From Planctomycetota bacterium (lineage in GTDB: Bacteria; Planctomycetota; PLA2; JAEUHO01): a stretch of DNA of 33,654 nucleotides. The notes under the pieces are model-generated. The model did no database searches and was not told the origin of the DNA. It was given only the letters and a program-made list of their open reading frames with translations. Positions 1,822-9,273 of the stretch are shown here, in pieces. The stretch covers positions 1 to 33,654 of the forward strand of contig JAQBWE010000005.1 of NCBI GenBank assembly GCA_027625315.1. Reading direction: 5' to 3'. A program made the translations under genes and the position numbers. The number at the start of each line of letters is the position of its first letter. The stretch's first letter is position 1.

Positions 1822-3696
1822 TCAGCGCGTCCCGAGGCTCACGCCCATGCGGCCCGGTGCGATCGCAAACTCAAGGCGCTGCGTGCCGCGGTAGACGACG
1901 ATCGGGAGCGGCGTCTCGCTGGCCGCCGCGCCGCCGATGGCCGCGCGCAGATCCTCGACGGTGTCGAGGCGGCGCCCGTTGTACTGCGCGAGGTAGTCGC
2001 CCGCTTGGACGCCGGCCTGCGCGGCTGCGCTGTTGCCGTCGACGCTCGTGACGAGCAGCGTCGGCGCGGGCGTGCGCCACTCCGGCTGGCGATACAGGAC
2101 GAGGTAGCTGTGCACCACTTGGCTGGCCGCGGCGACATCCTTCGCGGGCGGCACCTGCTCGAACTCGTAGGGCCCCGGTTCGTAGCGCAGCTCCGCTACG
2201 GCGCCCGGCTGTACGTGCGGCGTGAGATCGATCCACCAGGGGTGGACGAGATCACCCGGTGCCCAGCCCGCGCGCGCGTACTGCCACGTGCCGAACTGCG
2301 GGCGGTTCGGGTTGAGATAGACATCCGTCTTCCACAGGCGATTCTCGAAGCGCTGCGGCTCCGCGTCCTCGCCAGGCTGGAACACGACTGTCCGCGTGCA
2401 CGGGGTGAACTCGCCTACCTGGGAGTGGCCGGTGGTCGTCATGAACACACGCGCCGCGGCGGCCTCGGCCGGGATCGTCACCGCGCGCGGCGTGAAGAAG
2501 TCGCGGAAGCGATTCTCCTCGGAGCGGTAGTGGGCCGAGCCGTGCCAGAGGGGCTCCACCTGGTACGGCTCCAACGCCGGCGTGCCATGGTGGAAGTCGA
2601 GCGTGATGCTCAGCATGTAGCCGCGATTCTTGTAGAACGTCGTGCCCGCGGCAACGCCCAGCGTGCACGCGCCGGTGAGCAGCGGTCGGAAGTGCGTGAC
2701 ATCGACCTCCCAGTGGCACGGCGTGCGGTACGAGGTGATGAACGGCACGATGGCAAGCTTGGTGCCGTCGGCTGTGACGACGTACACCTCGCCGTTTCGA
2801 TCCCACTCATCCCAGTCGTTGCCGGCGTCATGGATGTCGAGCGTAAGGATCACCCGGCCGAACGCCCAGCCTTCGGGCGGCAGTGCCAGCGGCTTCTCGA
2901 AGAAGGTCTTCGCGTTGTTCGTCAGCACGTGGTTGAACACCTCGACATGCAGGGGCGGTCGGGCCGGGGTCGCGGCCTCGCCGCCCTCGAAGCGAATCGA
3001 GTCGACGTCGAAGACCGTCGCGGCGTCGGCGCGCGTGCCGGCCCCGATCGCGAGGCGCATCGGGTAGGGCGCGAGGCGCGGAATGAAGTAACGCTCGTAG
3101 ACCGGGGCGCCGGCCACGGCGACGCTCACCTCGGCGCCACCGACGACGTGCACGAGCTCGACCACAAACTCAGAAACGGCACCGCGGAACTCGGCAGGCG
3201 CGACCCGCTTCACGATCTCGCGTCCATCGAAGTGCAGCGAGATCTCGCGTTGGGGGAGGTCGGCGTAGTTGCCCCACGGCGAGAACATCTCCGGGCTCGG
3301 CGGGTTGTGCACGTCGACCCCGACCGCGAACGACCCGCGTAGGTTCGGCTCGACCCAGCTGGGCACGAACGGCGCGGGACCGCGCACGCCGAACGCGCTC
3401 GTGTTGAGGAACACGAAGGCGCCGCCGTCGCCGCCCGCGTGGACCCGCAACCGACAGGCTAACTTCACCGTCGCGCGCGGGCCCTCGAACGCTGGTTCGA
3501 AGGCGACTGCGTTGGACTGCCCTTTCGTCCAGGCCTCATCGAGAAGGCCGAAGCGGCCGTCCGTCGCGCGCGGGCCGCCGCCGGCGCCAAACTGCGCGAG
3601 GTGGTAGCTCGGCCCCACGGGTTCGTCCTCGGCGTGGGCGGGGAGGCCAGCCCCGACTAGGAGGGAGATGAGGAGCAGGAGACGGGCGACACGCAT
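1822..3696 (-). CDS. Secreted PNGase F-type (peptide-N-glycosidase F) protein with N-terminal lectin-like region and C-terminal PDZ-like domain
   Basis: Signal peptide; NDWDEWDRNGEVYV, PFITSYRTPCHWEVDVTHFRPLLTG and PQFGTWQYARAGWAPGDLV resemble PNGase F N and C domain motifs. C-terminus LLVTSVDGNSAAAQAGVQAGDYLAQYNGRRLDTVEDLRAAI is PDZ-like. Confidence 0.75.
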   Translation of the reverse strand: MRVARLLLLISLLVGAGLPAHAEDEPVGPSYHLAQFGAGGGPRATDGRFGLLDEAWTKGQSNAVAFEPAFEGPRATVKLACRLRVHAGGDGGAFVFLNTSAFGVRGPAPFVPSWVEPNLRGSFAVGVDVHNPPSPEMFSPWGNYADLPQREISLHFDGREIVKRVAPAEFRGAVSEFVVELVHVVGGAEVSVAVAGAPVYERYFIPRLAPYPMRLAIGAGTRADAATVFDVDSIRFEGGEAATPARPPLHVEVFNHVLTNNAKTFFEKPLALPPEGWAFGRVILTLDIHDAGNDWDEWDRNGEVYVVTADGTKLAIVPFITSYRTPCHWEVDVTHFRPLLTGACTLGVAAGTTFYKNRGYMLSITLDFHHGTPALEPYQVEPLWHGSAHYRSEENRFRDFFTPRAVTIPAEAAAARVFMTTTGHSQVGEFTPCTRTVVFQPGEDAEPQRFENRLWKTDVYLNPNRPQFGTWQYARAGWAPGDLVHPWWIDLTPHVQPGAVAELRYEPGPYEFEQVPPAKDVAAASQVVHSYLVLYRQPEWRTPAPTLLVTSVDGNSAAAQAGVQAGDYLAQYNGRRLDTVEDLRAAIGGAAASETPLPIVVYRGTQRLEFAIAPGRMGVSLGTR

Positions 3697-4477: not shown

Positions 4478-5227
4478 CTACTTGCTGAACTCGAAGGCGT
4501 CCTTGAGTCCGAGCGGATCCATGTCCGTCAGCTCGTAGCCCTCTTCGAGCCTGTCCGCCCTCTCCGCGCCTACCGCCTGCCGCATCTTCGCCTGATGACC
4601 CACGACGACGCCCATGACGCCGCCGATATTGCCGAGCACGCGGCCCATGTACTTGCCGGTGAGGCCCGCGCGCTTGACCGGGTCGCTCTTGGCCTCCTCG
4701 AACTCCCGGCGTACGTCCTCCACGGTGCCGTTCTCGTCCTTGAGCAGTTTGAGGAACTCCTCGGTCGTCTCGTTCGCGATGCGCCGTACGGCATCCTCTT
4801 CTTGGCTCGTCAGTCCGAGTTCCGAAGCGGCTTCCCGCAGCGTGACCTTTTTCTTTGGCGGATCCGACGGTAGGGAACCGATCTTGCCGCCGCTCTCTTC
4901 GGCTGCGGCGGCCACGGAGGTGCGGACGCTCTCCTCGATGGCGGGGCGCAAGCGCGCCTCAAGCCGCTCGACGATCGCATCCAGATCGTCGCCTGCGGGT
5001 TGGGCCGCCGAACCGGGGCCTCGCCCTTCAAGACCCGGCGCCTGACGCATGGGGCGCTGACCCAGCGTGGCTTCGATGCGATCGAGGCGTGTGATTACGG
5101 CCGACAGGTCGGTGGATTCTGCCGATGTGCTCAGCGGCGTCGACGAGCCGCCGATCATCATCGTCGCCACCGCGCCGGCCGCGCCGCCGATGAGTCCGAG
5201 CAAGAGTGCGAGTCCAGTCTGATGCAT
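4478..5227 (-). CDS. Hypothetical protein with N-terminal TM anchor and coiled-coil/helical region
   Basis: ORF of 249 aa, N-terminal MHQTGLALLLGLIGGAAGAVATMMIGG, charged helical remainder; convergent with 4115..4468. Confidence 0.6.
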   Translation of the reverse strand: MHQTGLALLLGLIGGAAGAVATMMIGGSSTPLSTSAESTDLSAVITRLDRIEATLGQRPMRQAPGLEGRGPGSAAQPAGDDLDAIVERLEARLRPAIEESVRTSVAAAAEESGGKIGSLPSDPPKKKVTLREAASELGLTSQEEDAVRRIANETTEEFLKLLKDENGTVEDVRREFEEAKSDPVKRAGLTGKYMGRVLGNIGGVMGVVVGHQAKMRQAVGAERADRLEEGYELTDMDPLGLKDAFEFSK

Positions 5228-5409
5228 GGGGAAATCTCCGCAGGTGCGAGCCCAGACGCGACGTGTCTGGGCGGCCTAGCACGCGCATGAGCATACACAC
5301 GAAAACTAGCGCGGACCCGCAGTCGGCCCCGGCGCTCGCGCCGATGCCGTGCTTCGCGACAGACCGAGCCTTTGCTACCTTCCCTCCGACTCAGGGAGGG
5401 ACACGGCGC

Positions 5410-5910
5410 GTGCATCGACGGCGACTTCTGCTTGCGGTGCTGATCGGCGTGCCGCTCGGCGTGGGCCTCTTCACCATGCACTACGCAGGCGGCACGGCCT
5501 ATCTGAGCTCCGACCCGCAGGCATGCGTGAACTGTCACATCATGCAGGGTCACTTCGATTCGTGGCAAAAGTCGAGCCACCACGGCGTCGCCGTGTGCGT
5601 CGACTGCCACCTCCCGGCCGACTTCTTCGGGAAGTACCTCGCGAAGATGGATCAGGGGTGGCGGCACTCCAAGGCGTTCACCTTGCAGGACTTCCACGAG
5701 CCGATCATGGCGGCAGAGAGCAGCCAGCGCATCGTGCAGGACAACTGCGTGCGCTGTCACTCCGAGTTGTTGCATCCGTCCATCGCGAACGCGGCGACGG
5801 ACCGCGACCAACTCTCCTGTGTGCACTGCCACCGGGCGGTCGGCCACGGGGCCTGGGTGGCGCTAGGTGGTCCCGAGCGCGGTGAAGCCGCAGAAAGAGA
5901 GCGCAAGTGA
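5410..5910 (+). CDS. nrfH: Cytochrome c nitrite reductase small subunit NrfH (tetraheme, NapC/NirT family)
   Basis: N-terminal TM anchor and four CxxCH motifs (CVNCHIM, CVDCH, CVRCH, CVHCH). Start GTG preceded by GGAGGG; overlaps nrfA by 4 nt. Confidence 0.9.
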
Positions 5911-7337
5911 CGGGCGAACGGAAGAGCAAGGGATGGGGCTTCTTCGGCGTCGTCTTGGTGGGCTCGGTCCTCGTGACCGCCCTCGTGACGGCGTTGCTGC
6001 TGAACATCTCCGACCGTAAGGACGAGGCGCGGACGCGTTTCGTGCGCCTCGTCGAGGTGAACGAAGACACGACGGATCCGGCGGAGTGGGGCAAGAACTG
6101 GCCGCGCCAGTACGACTCCTACCAGCGCACCGCCCTGGCCACGCGCACGCGCTTTGGCGGGCACGGCGGCAGCGAGGCGCTGCCCGAACAGAAGATCGAG
6201 CGCGACCCGTGGCTCAAGCGCATGTTCCTCGGCTACGCGTTCTCGATCGACTACCGCGATCGTCGCGGCCACGCCTACATGCTGCAGGATCAGGAGGAGA
6301 CCGATCGGCAGACCAAGCCTCAGTCGGGTTCCTGCTTGCACTGCCACGCTTCGATCATGCCGCTGTACCGCAAGCTCGGCGACGGCGATGCCATGAAGGG
6401 TTTCGCGAAGACCAACAAGATCCCCTACAAGGAGCTGAACAAGCAACTGCACGACATCGGCCATGCCCATCCGGTCTCGTGCGTGGACTGCCACGATCCC
6501 GAGAGCATGAGCCTTCGCGTGACCCGGCCCGGGTTCATCAACGGCATCCAGGCGCTGGCAGCCGGGGAGGCGGAAGTGCCGCACATACCCTCGATCACGC
6601 AGTGGCGCGCGGGGGACCGCAGCACGCCCTACGATCCGAACCAGCACGGAAGCCGCAACGAGATGCGCAGCTTCGTTTGCGGCCAATGCCATGTCGAGTA
6701 CTACTGCTCGAGCGACTTTCCGCTGACCTTCCCGTGGGGGCACGGGATGACGGTTGACCAGACCGAGCAGTTCTGGAACGAGACGAAGCTCTCCAGCGGC
6801 GAGCGGTTCTACGACTACAAGCACAAGGAAACCGGTGCGCCGATCCTGAAGGCGCAGCATCCTGAGTTTGAGTTGTGGAGCCAAGGCATCCACGCGCGCA
6901 GCGGCGTCGCATGCGCTGACTGCCACATGCCGTACATGCGCGAAGGCGCCACGAAGATCTCCGACCACTGGGTGCGAAGCCCGTTGCTGAACATCAACCG
7001 TGCCTGCCAGGTGTGTCATCACTTCTCGGAGGATGAGATCAAGGCGCGCGTGGACAGCATTCAGGGCAAGACGCGCGACTTGATGTTGCGCGCGGGCGAG
7101 GCTCTGATGGGGCTGCTCGACGCGATCCTCGAGGCCCGCGGCGCGGGAGCGAGCGACGAGCAACTGGCCGAGGCCCTTGAGTTCCAGCGCAAGGCGCAAT
7201 GGCGACTCGACTTCATCGCCGCCGAGAACTCCATGGGCTTCCATGCGCCCCAGGAGGCCGCACGCGTGTTGGCCGAAGCGGCGCACATGGCCCGCGAAGG
7301 GCAGATCGCCGCGATCACTTGGAACAAGGCCAAGTAG
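5907..7337 (+). CDS. nrfA: Cytochrome c nitrite reductase catalytic subunit NrfA (pentaheme, all CxxCH)
   Basis: Five heme motifs: [34 protein letters not shown]. Conserved [21 protein letters not shown] segment as in NrfA. Confidence 0.92.
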
Positions 7338-7453: not shown

Positions 7454-8473
7454 TTGATGACGACCGCCCTGATCCTGCTGCTCGCGACGTCCGCGTTCGC
7501 TGACGAGATCATGCTGAACTCCGGCGATACCGTCGAAGCAGAGATCGTCAGCGTCGATCACACCGGCATGACCGTCAAGACGGCCGAGAAGACCGTTGAG
7601 TACGCCCCGGCGGATCTCGATCCGCAGTACTACTACGGCGAGTGGTCGGACCGCGCAGGCAAGGACGCCGAGTCGCACCTGCGCCTAGCCGTATTCGCCT
7701 TCGAGAACGGCATGTTCAACCAGGCCCGCAGCCACTACCGCAAGGCGCAGGCGCTGGACAAGGCGCTGGTCGAGAAGTTCGAAGCCGAGATCGTGCCGCA
7801 GATCAAGGAAGGCATCGCCGCCAAGTTGCTGGCCATGGCCCGGTCCGCGTTCGCTGCGAAGGACTATCACAAGGCCGAGGAGATCGTCGCCAAGATCCTC
7901 ACGCGACTTGAGGACACGAAGGCCGCTGCCGAGGCGCGCGACATCCTTGCGGATGTGCACCTGTGGGAGCTCGACCACGATCAGGAGCGCCTCCTCAAGC
8001 GCTTGACGCAATACCTACCGAAGGACGAGGCGGAAGCCCTGCGCGTGCGGGACCGCATCGCCTCGCGCGTGGCGCCCATCGAGAAGCGCATCGACAACGC
8101 CCGCAACACCGTGACCCGCGGGCTGCGCACCACCTCGGCCAACCGCTCGAAGGACATCTTCAAGGAGGCCGGGTTGGAGTTCGAGCGCCAGGTCAAGGCC
8201 GTCGACAAGCGCGTGGCCGAGGCTGGCGATGACGCCGCCCTGAAGGAGTACTTGGCGGGCGTGCGCGAGATCGCCGTGCGAGAGGGCGTGGACGCCTACC
8301 TGCATGCCGGCAACGTGTACATGGTCCGCACGTCGTTCAACGACGCGAAGAAGATGGCGGCGGCCGCCCTCGCGGTTGACCCCGCCAGCGTCAAGGCCAA
8401 GAAGTTCAACGAAGAGGTCATCGAGGCCGAGAAGCAGAACAGCCGGTGGTGGACCACCGCGGCCCGCCGTTAG
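7454..8473 (+). CDS. Secreted TPR-like repeat protein
   Basis: Signal-like N-terminus; MLNSGDTVEAEIVSVDHTGMTVKT small-barrel-like region; then helical repeats. Likely start TTG 7454 or ATG 7457. Confidence 0.7.
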   Translation: MMTTALILLLATSAFADEIMLNSGDTVEAEIVSVDHTGMTVKTAEKTVEYAPADLDPQYYYGEWSDRAGKDAESHLRLAVFAFENGMFNQARSHYRKAQALDKALVEKFEAEIVPQIKEGIAAKLLAMARSAFAAKDYHKAEEIVAKILTRLEDTKAAAEARDILADVHLWELDHDQERLLKRLTQYLPKDEAEALRVRDRIASRVAPIEKRIDNARNTVTRGLRTTSANRSKDIFKEAGLEFERQVKAVDKRVAEAGDDAALKEYLAGVREIAVREGVDAYLHAGNVYMVRTSFNDAKKMAAAALAVDPASVKAKKFNEEVIEAEKQNSRWWTTAARR

Positions 8474-8869
8474 GCGGCGGTACGCAGTCCTAGCGGACCG
8501 GCGGGGGGGCAACTCGCTGCTGGAGCGGGCGCGCGTCGTGCGGCGCGCGGGCACGGCCTTGGCCGGCTCAGCCTTCGCGTTGCGACGGGCGACATGGCGG
8601 CCCTGCAGCCTCTCGGGCTCCAGACCCATGCCGAACATGATCTGGCGCGAGGTCGCGTTCGGCGACCCAGCCCAGGTGTAGGTGCGGCCGTTGTGGAACG
8701 TGGACCACGTTCCAGGGTGGCCTCAGCAGTGCCCGACTTCCCAGGTGTACACCTGGCCCGACTTGCCGACCTTCGCCACGGGGAACGTGTCGTAGGCCAT
8801 GGCCGAGGGTGCGAGGAAGAGGATGGCGGCGAGGCCCGCGAGAGCCGTCCGCTGAATCCGCTTGATCAT
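8474..8869 (-). CDS. Candidate small secreted selenoprotein (TGA at 8723-8725 read as Sec), or a 48-aa peptide ending at that TGA; 3' boundary uncertain
   Basis: ATG 8869: MIKRIQRTALAGLAAILFLAPSAMAYDTFPVAKVGKSGQVYTWEVGHC-[TGA]-GHPGTWSTFHNGRTYTWAGSPNATSRQIMFGMGLEPERLQG... The frame is open on both sides of the TGA. A frameshift at C7 (8503-8509) would be needed to stop at the TAA near 8474. Confidence 0.45.
8694..8714 (-). promoter_or_regulatory. Perfect palindromic hairpin 8 nt downstream of the in-frame TGA: candidate bacterial SECIS element (alternative: terminator stem)
   Basis: Minus strand TGGAACGTG-GTC-CACGTTCCA: 9-bp stem, 3-nt loop starting with G, loop 17 nt after the TGA. Confidence 0.45.
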
Positions 8870-9273
8870 CGTGTGAGTCTCCTGCCGGGGATCTGCGGCA
8901 CAGGCCGAACTCCCAGGTCAAGCGGTTCATGTTCCTCCTGGAACTCCGCCTGTCCAGACTTTCGTCCACCCAGGCTGCGCGCAGGATGGCGGCATGAAGA
9001 TGGCCCAACATGGGTCTCAAAGCCCTGTTCGTTGGGCCTGATGCACGACCTCTGGCGTGCGGAGCACGGACGATTTGGCGCGCATTTGCCGCGCGGATCG
9101 CCGGACGCCGGCCGGGCTGTGCCCGCGCTCGACCCGCGGCGGCCGTTCAGGTATTCAGCGCCTAGCGTTCCCACTTGTATGCACAGCGGTGCGGAATTCG
9201 CCGCAGACACATCGGTCACTGTCTATAAACGGATCGTCTGGTTTCAGTATTCAGCGCACCGCAGAGGAGTCCC

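Follow-up and report, generated by a model that had tools for sequence, protein, structure and literature searches.

Introduction

New families of selenoproteins are rarely found, and most of the methods by which they are predicted require the existence of homologs having Cys. The authors of deep-Sep have acknowledged that their method may miss selenoproteins that lack Cys homologs (PMC12013277). Among the selenoproteins in which Sec is adjacent to Cys, animal thioredoxin reductase has GCUG at its active site (PMC8914392), and the bacterial selenoproteins SaoC, SaoL, HgcA, MbdU and KCU-star also have a vicinal Cys-Sec (PMC13188914, Table 1). CU motifs are also found in selenoproteins that are linked to metals, i.e., MerB-like SaoL, HgcA, MbdU and a CopZ-like protein (same table).

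Here we describe a planctomycete gene that almost certainly encodes a selenoprotein, with the UGA at codon 49 specifying Sec; Sec insertion has not been shown experimentally. The gene belongs to a new family that is exported, apparently Sec-only, and unlisted in the databases and literature that we checked. As in animal thioredoxin reductase, adjacent Cys and Sec are flanked by Gly: CU is present in every member of the family, and three members (L096, L058 and L053) have the identical GCUG. Unlike in that enzyme, the motif is internal, lying in a loop that connects two predicted strands within a ~57-residue domain, and the protein is bacterial, exported and devoid of FAD/NADPH domains. We do not claim homology, and identification of the gene product as a thioredoxin reductase was rejected because this ~120-aa protein has no FAD/NAD(P)H domains. 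The family shares with SaoC, SaoL, HgcA, MbdU and KCU-star that it is a bacterial selenoprotein with vicinal Cys-Sec, but these lack its GxPGTWST core, and the family has no match in NCBIfam, from which the NF models listed in Table 1 of PMC13188914 come. Moreover, SaoC and KCU-star have names that point to a C-terminal CU, in contrast to the internal CU of the new family.

Results and Discussion

The gene and its 3' end

The window, by which we mean the whole stretch of 33,654 nt that was analyzed, is contig C154 of a draft genome of a member of the Planctomycetota (3.2 Mb, 342 contigs, 92% complete). The initial annotation had proposed that a frame on the minus strand starts with an ATG at 8869, encodes a signal peptide, and runs on past a TGA at 8725-8723, which is codon 49 and directly follows Cys48. 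Rereading of the sequence confirmed all of these points: TGC-TGA occupies positions 8728-8723 (codons 48-49) and the frame is open beyond it. The features of the gene are given in Table 1. No match to a promoter or terminator was found near the gene.

Table 1. Features of the predicted selenoprotein gene and their coordinates in the window
Feature	Position	Strand	Basis and remarks
Predicted selenoprotein gene	8490..8869	-	~125 aa; 3' end at 8490 inferred, presuming one base lost in the C7 run; homolog ends compared
AGGAG, likely ribosome-binding site	8879..8883	-	9 nt upstream of ATG; direct sequence reading
Putative Sec-type signal peptide MIKRIQRTALAGLAAILFLAPSAMA, residues 1-25	8795..8869	-	Read from sequence, no dedicated predictor; comparable segment in 14/14 homologs
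Core domain K33-L83, including Cys48-Sec49	8621..8773	-	17 invariant alignment columns; AlphaFold2 pLDDT 79-81
TGC codon 48, invariant Cys adjoining Sec	8726..8728	-	Alignment of homologs
TGA codon 49, predicted to be read as selenocysteine	8723..8725	-	TGA at same codon in 14/14 homologs
bSECIS hairpin GGAACGUG-GUC-CACGUUCC, apical GGU, 16-17 nt past UGA	8695..8713	-	Homolog comparison; fits model of PMC13188914 Fig. 2A
Basic K/R/A/P/T/S-rich tail, pI ~12, probably disordered	8510..8620	-	Low pLDDT at model end
C7 run, probable homopolymer indel shifting the natural stop out of frame	8503..8509	-	Sequence; homolog C-termini

As assembled, the open reading frame extends far into the antisense strand of a plus-strand TPR gene that ends at 8473, unlike the frames of the homologs, which reach a stop codon after a short basic tail. 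If the C7 run is read as C8, the protein ends with ...SSSELPPPPVR followed by TAG, the stop lying at 8492-8490, ~16 nt short of the convergent TPR gene. This end matches the proline-rich C-termini of homologs, such as SLPTPPASARR and LPPPPAGAPAKK, each directly followed by a stop. It is therefore likely, as far as the letters allow one to judge, that the C7 run of the window copy is a homopolymer miscount that has frameshifted the 3' end. The indel that had been suspected at this site is thus supported by the way in which the homologs end.

A family with one conserved in-frame TGA

Searches that started from the read-through protein and went on to a profile retrieved 14 homologous loci in eight genomes of three genera, all within one bacterial family, and one in-frame TGA is present at the same codon in 14/14. 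Six of the genomes belong to the genus of the window and two to other genera of the same bacterial family, and there are up to three copies per genome. The sharing of the TGA codon by 14 loci in eight genomes means that its in-frame position exceeds chance. The read-through homologs have 90-194 residues and consist of a signal peptide, a 57-residue core and, usually, a basic tail rich in K/R/A/P/T/S. The N-terminus of all 14 has a basic-hydrophobic-small segment like that of the window copy. In L047, L070 and L053, there is no basic tail and the protein stops soon after the GM[GK]L core end; the tail is dispensable in these members.

The consensus of the core is GxSGQxYxWxxGxC-U-GxPGTWST...GRxYxWxGP...RQIMxGMGL. 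Seventeen core columns are invariant (K33, S37, G38, W43, G46, C48, U49, G50, P52, G53, T54, W55, T57, W66, G68, M81 and L83), ten of which fall after U. Homologs ending at the TGA would have refuted the proposal; instead, each of the 14 runs on, and the protein sequence downstream of the TGA is conserved. Homologs having Cys are customary supporting evidence for a bacterial selenoprotein, without being a strict requirement. It had also been anticipated that homologs would have either U or C in the HC[CU]GH context, and this was borne out for U only, as no Cys form was found: the pattern CCG[HDQ]PGTW gave no homolog in 84,980 genomes, and a profile search of 392 members of the phylum revealed no relative without the TGA. 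The 16 stretches that fit the Cys-form pattern in the 84,980 genomes were rejected, none being homologous, as was a weak match without a stop in G090 (L102, E 8e-4), which is a low-complexity chance match. The exact TGA pattern occurs at 58 loci in this set of genomes, 13 of them true and all of these in Planctomycetota; the other 45, together with four viral matches, were judged from their translations to be due to chance. It should be noted that all homologs come from a single bacterial family, which is a caveat to the case for a selenoprotein, and that the tree obtained from the 57-column core is almost unsupported.

The segment after the TGA was assessed by column permutation instead of pN/pS, which was uninformative: past the hairpin, pN/pS is not clearly below 1, and it suffers from saturation and from the GC bias of third positions. 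Over codons 10-33 after U, i.e., past the hairpin, the protein score of the true frame exceeded those of all permutations of nucleotide columns (0/2000 as high). It also beat both other frames, one of which is broken by stops in six members.

A SECIS-type hairpin behind the TGA

In 14/14 members, the sequence following the TGA is GGN-NNN-CCN-GG[G/A]-ACG-TGG-T[C/T]C-ACG-T[C/T]C, which can fold into a hairpin whose stem has at most 8 bp and whose common form is GG[G/A]ACGUGGUCCACGU[C/U]CC. Six base pairs are invariant, and one pair is G-C in eight members and A-U in six, with no mismatches, so that the silent third base of a Gly codon is coupled to Ser versus Phe at residue 58. The covariation was not equaled in any of 500 shuffles (0/500), and kinship among the sequences inflates such counts; the outermost pair is missing in five members. 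The two Thr codons of the stem are invariably ACG (28/28), as compared to 57% ACG locally, which is another sign of constraint at the RNA level. By itself, the hairpin of the window would not convince (z -1.8; 4.5% of the TGAs in the window have one that is equally stable), and the case for it therefore depends on its conservation.

A bulged U has been described in the stem of the fdhF SECIS of Escherichia coli, whereas the stem of the family hairpin is fully paired and lacks it. In other respects, the family hairpin resembles the fdhF SECIS and the bSECIS model (PMC13188914, Fig. 2A), having an apical GGU at ~20-22 nt, an 8-bp stem, a spacing of 16-17 nt and an energy below -7.5 kcal/mol, and it satisfies all four conditions of that published model. 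A search for a SECIS was among the checks suggested in the initial annotation, and a SECIS-type element is located at the right distance in 14/14 and contains one covarying pair. Comparison of the homologs shows that the UGA of codon 49 belongs to the coding frame, and that the hairpin downstream of it is conserved for RNA structure.

Selenocysteine machinery of the host and its relatives

The draft genome contains a tRNA-Sec (68.8 bits, gathering cut-off 47), which ARAGORN identifies as SeC with anticodon TCA (UCA), and a SelB match above the curated cut-off that is located at a contig end. Neither selA nor a true selD was found in the draft, which is 92% complete. Across 12 genomes of the bacterial family, tRNA-Sec exceeds the cut-off in 9/12 and SelB in 11/12, a SelA match is present in 11/12, and SelD exceeds the cut-off in 9/12. 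Since selA and selD are neighbors in most of these genomes, a single gap could explain both absences, and one shared assembly gap probably accounts for them. Of the Sec genes expected in the host, tRNA-Sec and SelB are present; SelA and SelD were not found in its draft genome, although nearly all members of the bacterial family have them.

The SelD genes of nine genomes (L137-L145) each contain one in-frame TGA, the sequence around it being VRLTQYASAGG-U-AAKVDK, or near to this, where it was read. In addition, an MsrA gene with an in-frame TGA is present in three genomes (L149 in G001:C103, L157 in G005:C66 and L181 in G006:C49). In L149 and L157, the TGA is at the catalytic position (GUFW) and the N-terminus is signal-like; judging from these features, they probably encode an exported selenoprotein MsrA. 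At these two loci, the Sec-MsrA gene lies within 2 kb of a member of the family described here, and these two members are the closest relatives that the window copy has. The two proteins have in common that they contain Sec and are probably exported, but they are unrelated in sequence (MsrA corresponds to Pfam PMSR), and MsrA is a known selenoprotein family. All of the genomic criteria tested indicate that the lineage decodes UGA as Sec.

How codon 49 is read

The reading of codon 49 as Sec, which the initial annotation had put forward, is supported by the conserved TGA, the conservation of the protein downstream of it, the hairpin, and the tRNA-Sec and SelB of the host, and it has to be weighed against two others. 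If UGA were an ordinary stop, the gene would encode a secreted peptide of 48 residues with GHC at its end, and what follows would be a decayed or unrelated frame. It is true that UGA stops translation elsewhere in the genome, that the hairpin of a single sequence is only modestly stable, and that the window frame is disrupted at its far 3' end. However, decay does not fit with a TGA, a frame and post-TGA residues (PGTW, T57, W66, G68, M81 and L83 are invariant) that have been kept in 14/14, with homologous frames closed by a stop that lies mostly after the basic tail, with a hairpin that covaries, or with Sec machinery in the host lineage, and we consider a stop very improbable. Decoding of UGA as another residue, through a variant genetic code or leaky readthrough with Trp, deserves equally little credence, even though a frame that is open under another code would look identical. 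The SelA and SelB matches that exceed the cut-offs have no internal TGA, which argues that TGA does not generally serve as a sense codon; SelD and MsrA of these genomes have an in-frame TGA where Sec is known to occur in these proteins; and the SECIS-type hairpin, the tRNA-Sec(UCA) and SelB all point to Sec.

Fold and family assignment

No member of the family has a significant match in Pfam or NCBIfam, and a sequence search of the PDB and a plasmid search did not reveal a relative. AlphaFold2 predicts, with moderate confidence (pLDDT 79-81, pTM 0.61-0.64), that the core consists of four beta strands followed by a helix, with Cys-Sec located in the loop that joins strand 2 to strand 3. Fold searches against the PDB and viral structures gave no match, none in the PDB being below E 0.5, and fold matches consequently provide no support for a redox fold. 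A thioredoxin-fold oxidoreductase was rejected on these grounds, the predicted four strands and helix not being a thioredoxin fold. Table 1 of the 2026 catalogue, which covers 119 prokaryotic selenoprotein families, contains no CUGxPGTW entry (PMC13188914), and the core peptide was not found printed in the literature searched; the selenoprotein families of Haft were compared only via this table and NCBIfam. Within these limits, the family remains undescribed, as had been surmised.

Genomic neighbors and possible function

Four members in two genera (L154, L156, L158 and L159) adjoin a divergently transcribed gene for a VKOR-DsbA fusion, which has a long Pro/Ala linker and a CxHC motif; in the one fusion scanned, the E-values of the domains were 9.7e-13 (VKOR) and 2.4e-9 (DSBA). 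At L154, a Thioredoxin_7 gene ends ~38 nt ahead of the start of the selenoprotein gene. The window copy has no VKOR neighbor, and no VKOR match was obtained in G000, G001, G002 and G007, four genomes that do contain the family. Therefore, not every member can have VKOR as its partner, and VKOR at most serves a subgroup. Because the core tree is almost without support, we do not claim that the VKOR-linked members form a clade.

Known bacterial biology would suggest that SelB and Sec-tRNA-Sec decode the UGA of codon 49, and that the signal peptide exports the protein. In the envelope, Cys48-Sec49 might then alternate between the selenol/thiol and selenenylsulfide forms, and could act as a thiol-disulfide or peroxide redox couple similar to that of the terminal GCUG in animal thioredoxin reductase, though housed in a different, small fold. 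Electrons may, in one subgroup at least, be exchanged with the VKOR-DsbA fusion or the thioredoxin-like protein that is encoded next door. There are no protein data, and whether the vicinal Cys-Sec has such a redox role in the envelope, a function that is inferred, appears to us to be evenly balanced. Taken as one claim, a new exported selenoprotein whose UGA is read by SelB, whose Cys-Sec is redox active, and whose partner is encoded next door in at least one subgroup, is the view towards which we lean, with reservations. A further step would be that the family comprises Sec-obligate exported mini-proteins of undescribed fold, in which an internal GCUG-type selenenylsulfide serves as an electron carrier in the envelope, linking a VKOR-DsbA relay or thioredoxin to targets, for example oxidized proteins, i.e., a selenium-based periplasmic redox system that arose de novo in one planctomycete lineage. 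We offer this only as a tentative possibility.

The main rival to a redox role accepts the same new selenoprotein, but holds that the exposed Cys-Sec is an envelope ligand for soft metals (Hg, Cu, Ag, Cd), or a carrier or store of selenium, without electron cycling. It can draw on the CU motif known from metal-linked selenoproteins (PMC13188914), on the small size, export, basic tail and up to three copies per genome of the family, and on the absence of any enzyme-like match in the fold search. On the other hand, no metal-resistance genes were recognized among the inspected neighbors, four neighbors are thiol-redox VKOR-DsbA genes and two loci are near MsrA, and beyond Cys48, Sec49 and M81 the core offers no invariant Cys, His or Met with which a metal site could be completed. 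We regard binding of metal or selenium as unlikely, without dismissing it.

Given that no Cys form exists in anything searched, the family is one that standard pipelines are likely to overlook, and annotators would cut the protein at 48 residues. The family would provide a second natural setting, namely an exported protein of unrecognized fold, for the vicinal Cys-Sec (GCUG) chemistry of animal thioredoxin reductase, and this bears on the choice of Sec over Cys. In addition, the 14 aligned genes with their covarying SECIS constitute a compact system in which to study the mutual constraints of SECIS and protein sequence.

Other genes near the family members and in the window

The upstream neighbor on the same strand is, at L150 and L155, a repeat protein weakly resembling the C-terminal domain of squalene-hopene cyclase and, at L151 and L153, a GNAT acetyltransferase. 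The plus strand of the window contains a gene for an NrfA-type cytochrome c552 nitrite reductase (5907-7337; Pfam 4e-124), preceded by one for a small c-type cytochrome like NrfH (5206-5910). A minus-strand gene (1822-3696) encodes a protein that has PNGase F-like domains and, at its C-terminus, a PDZ domain.
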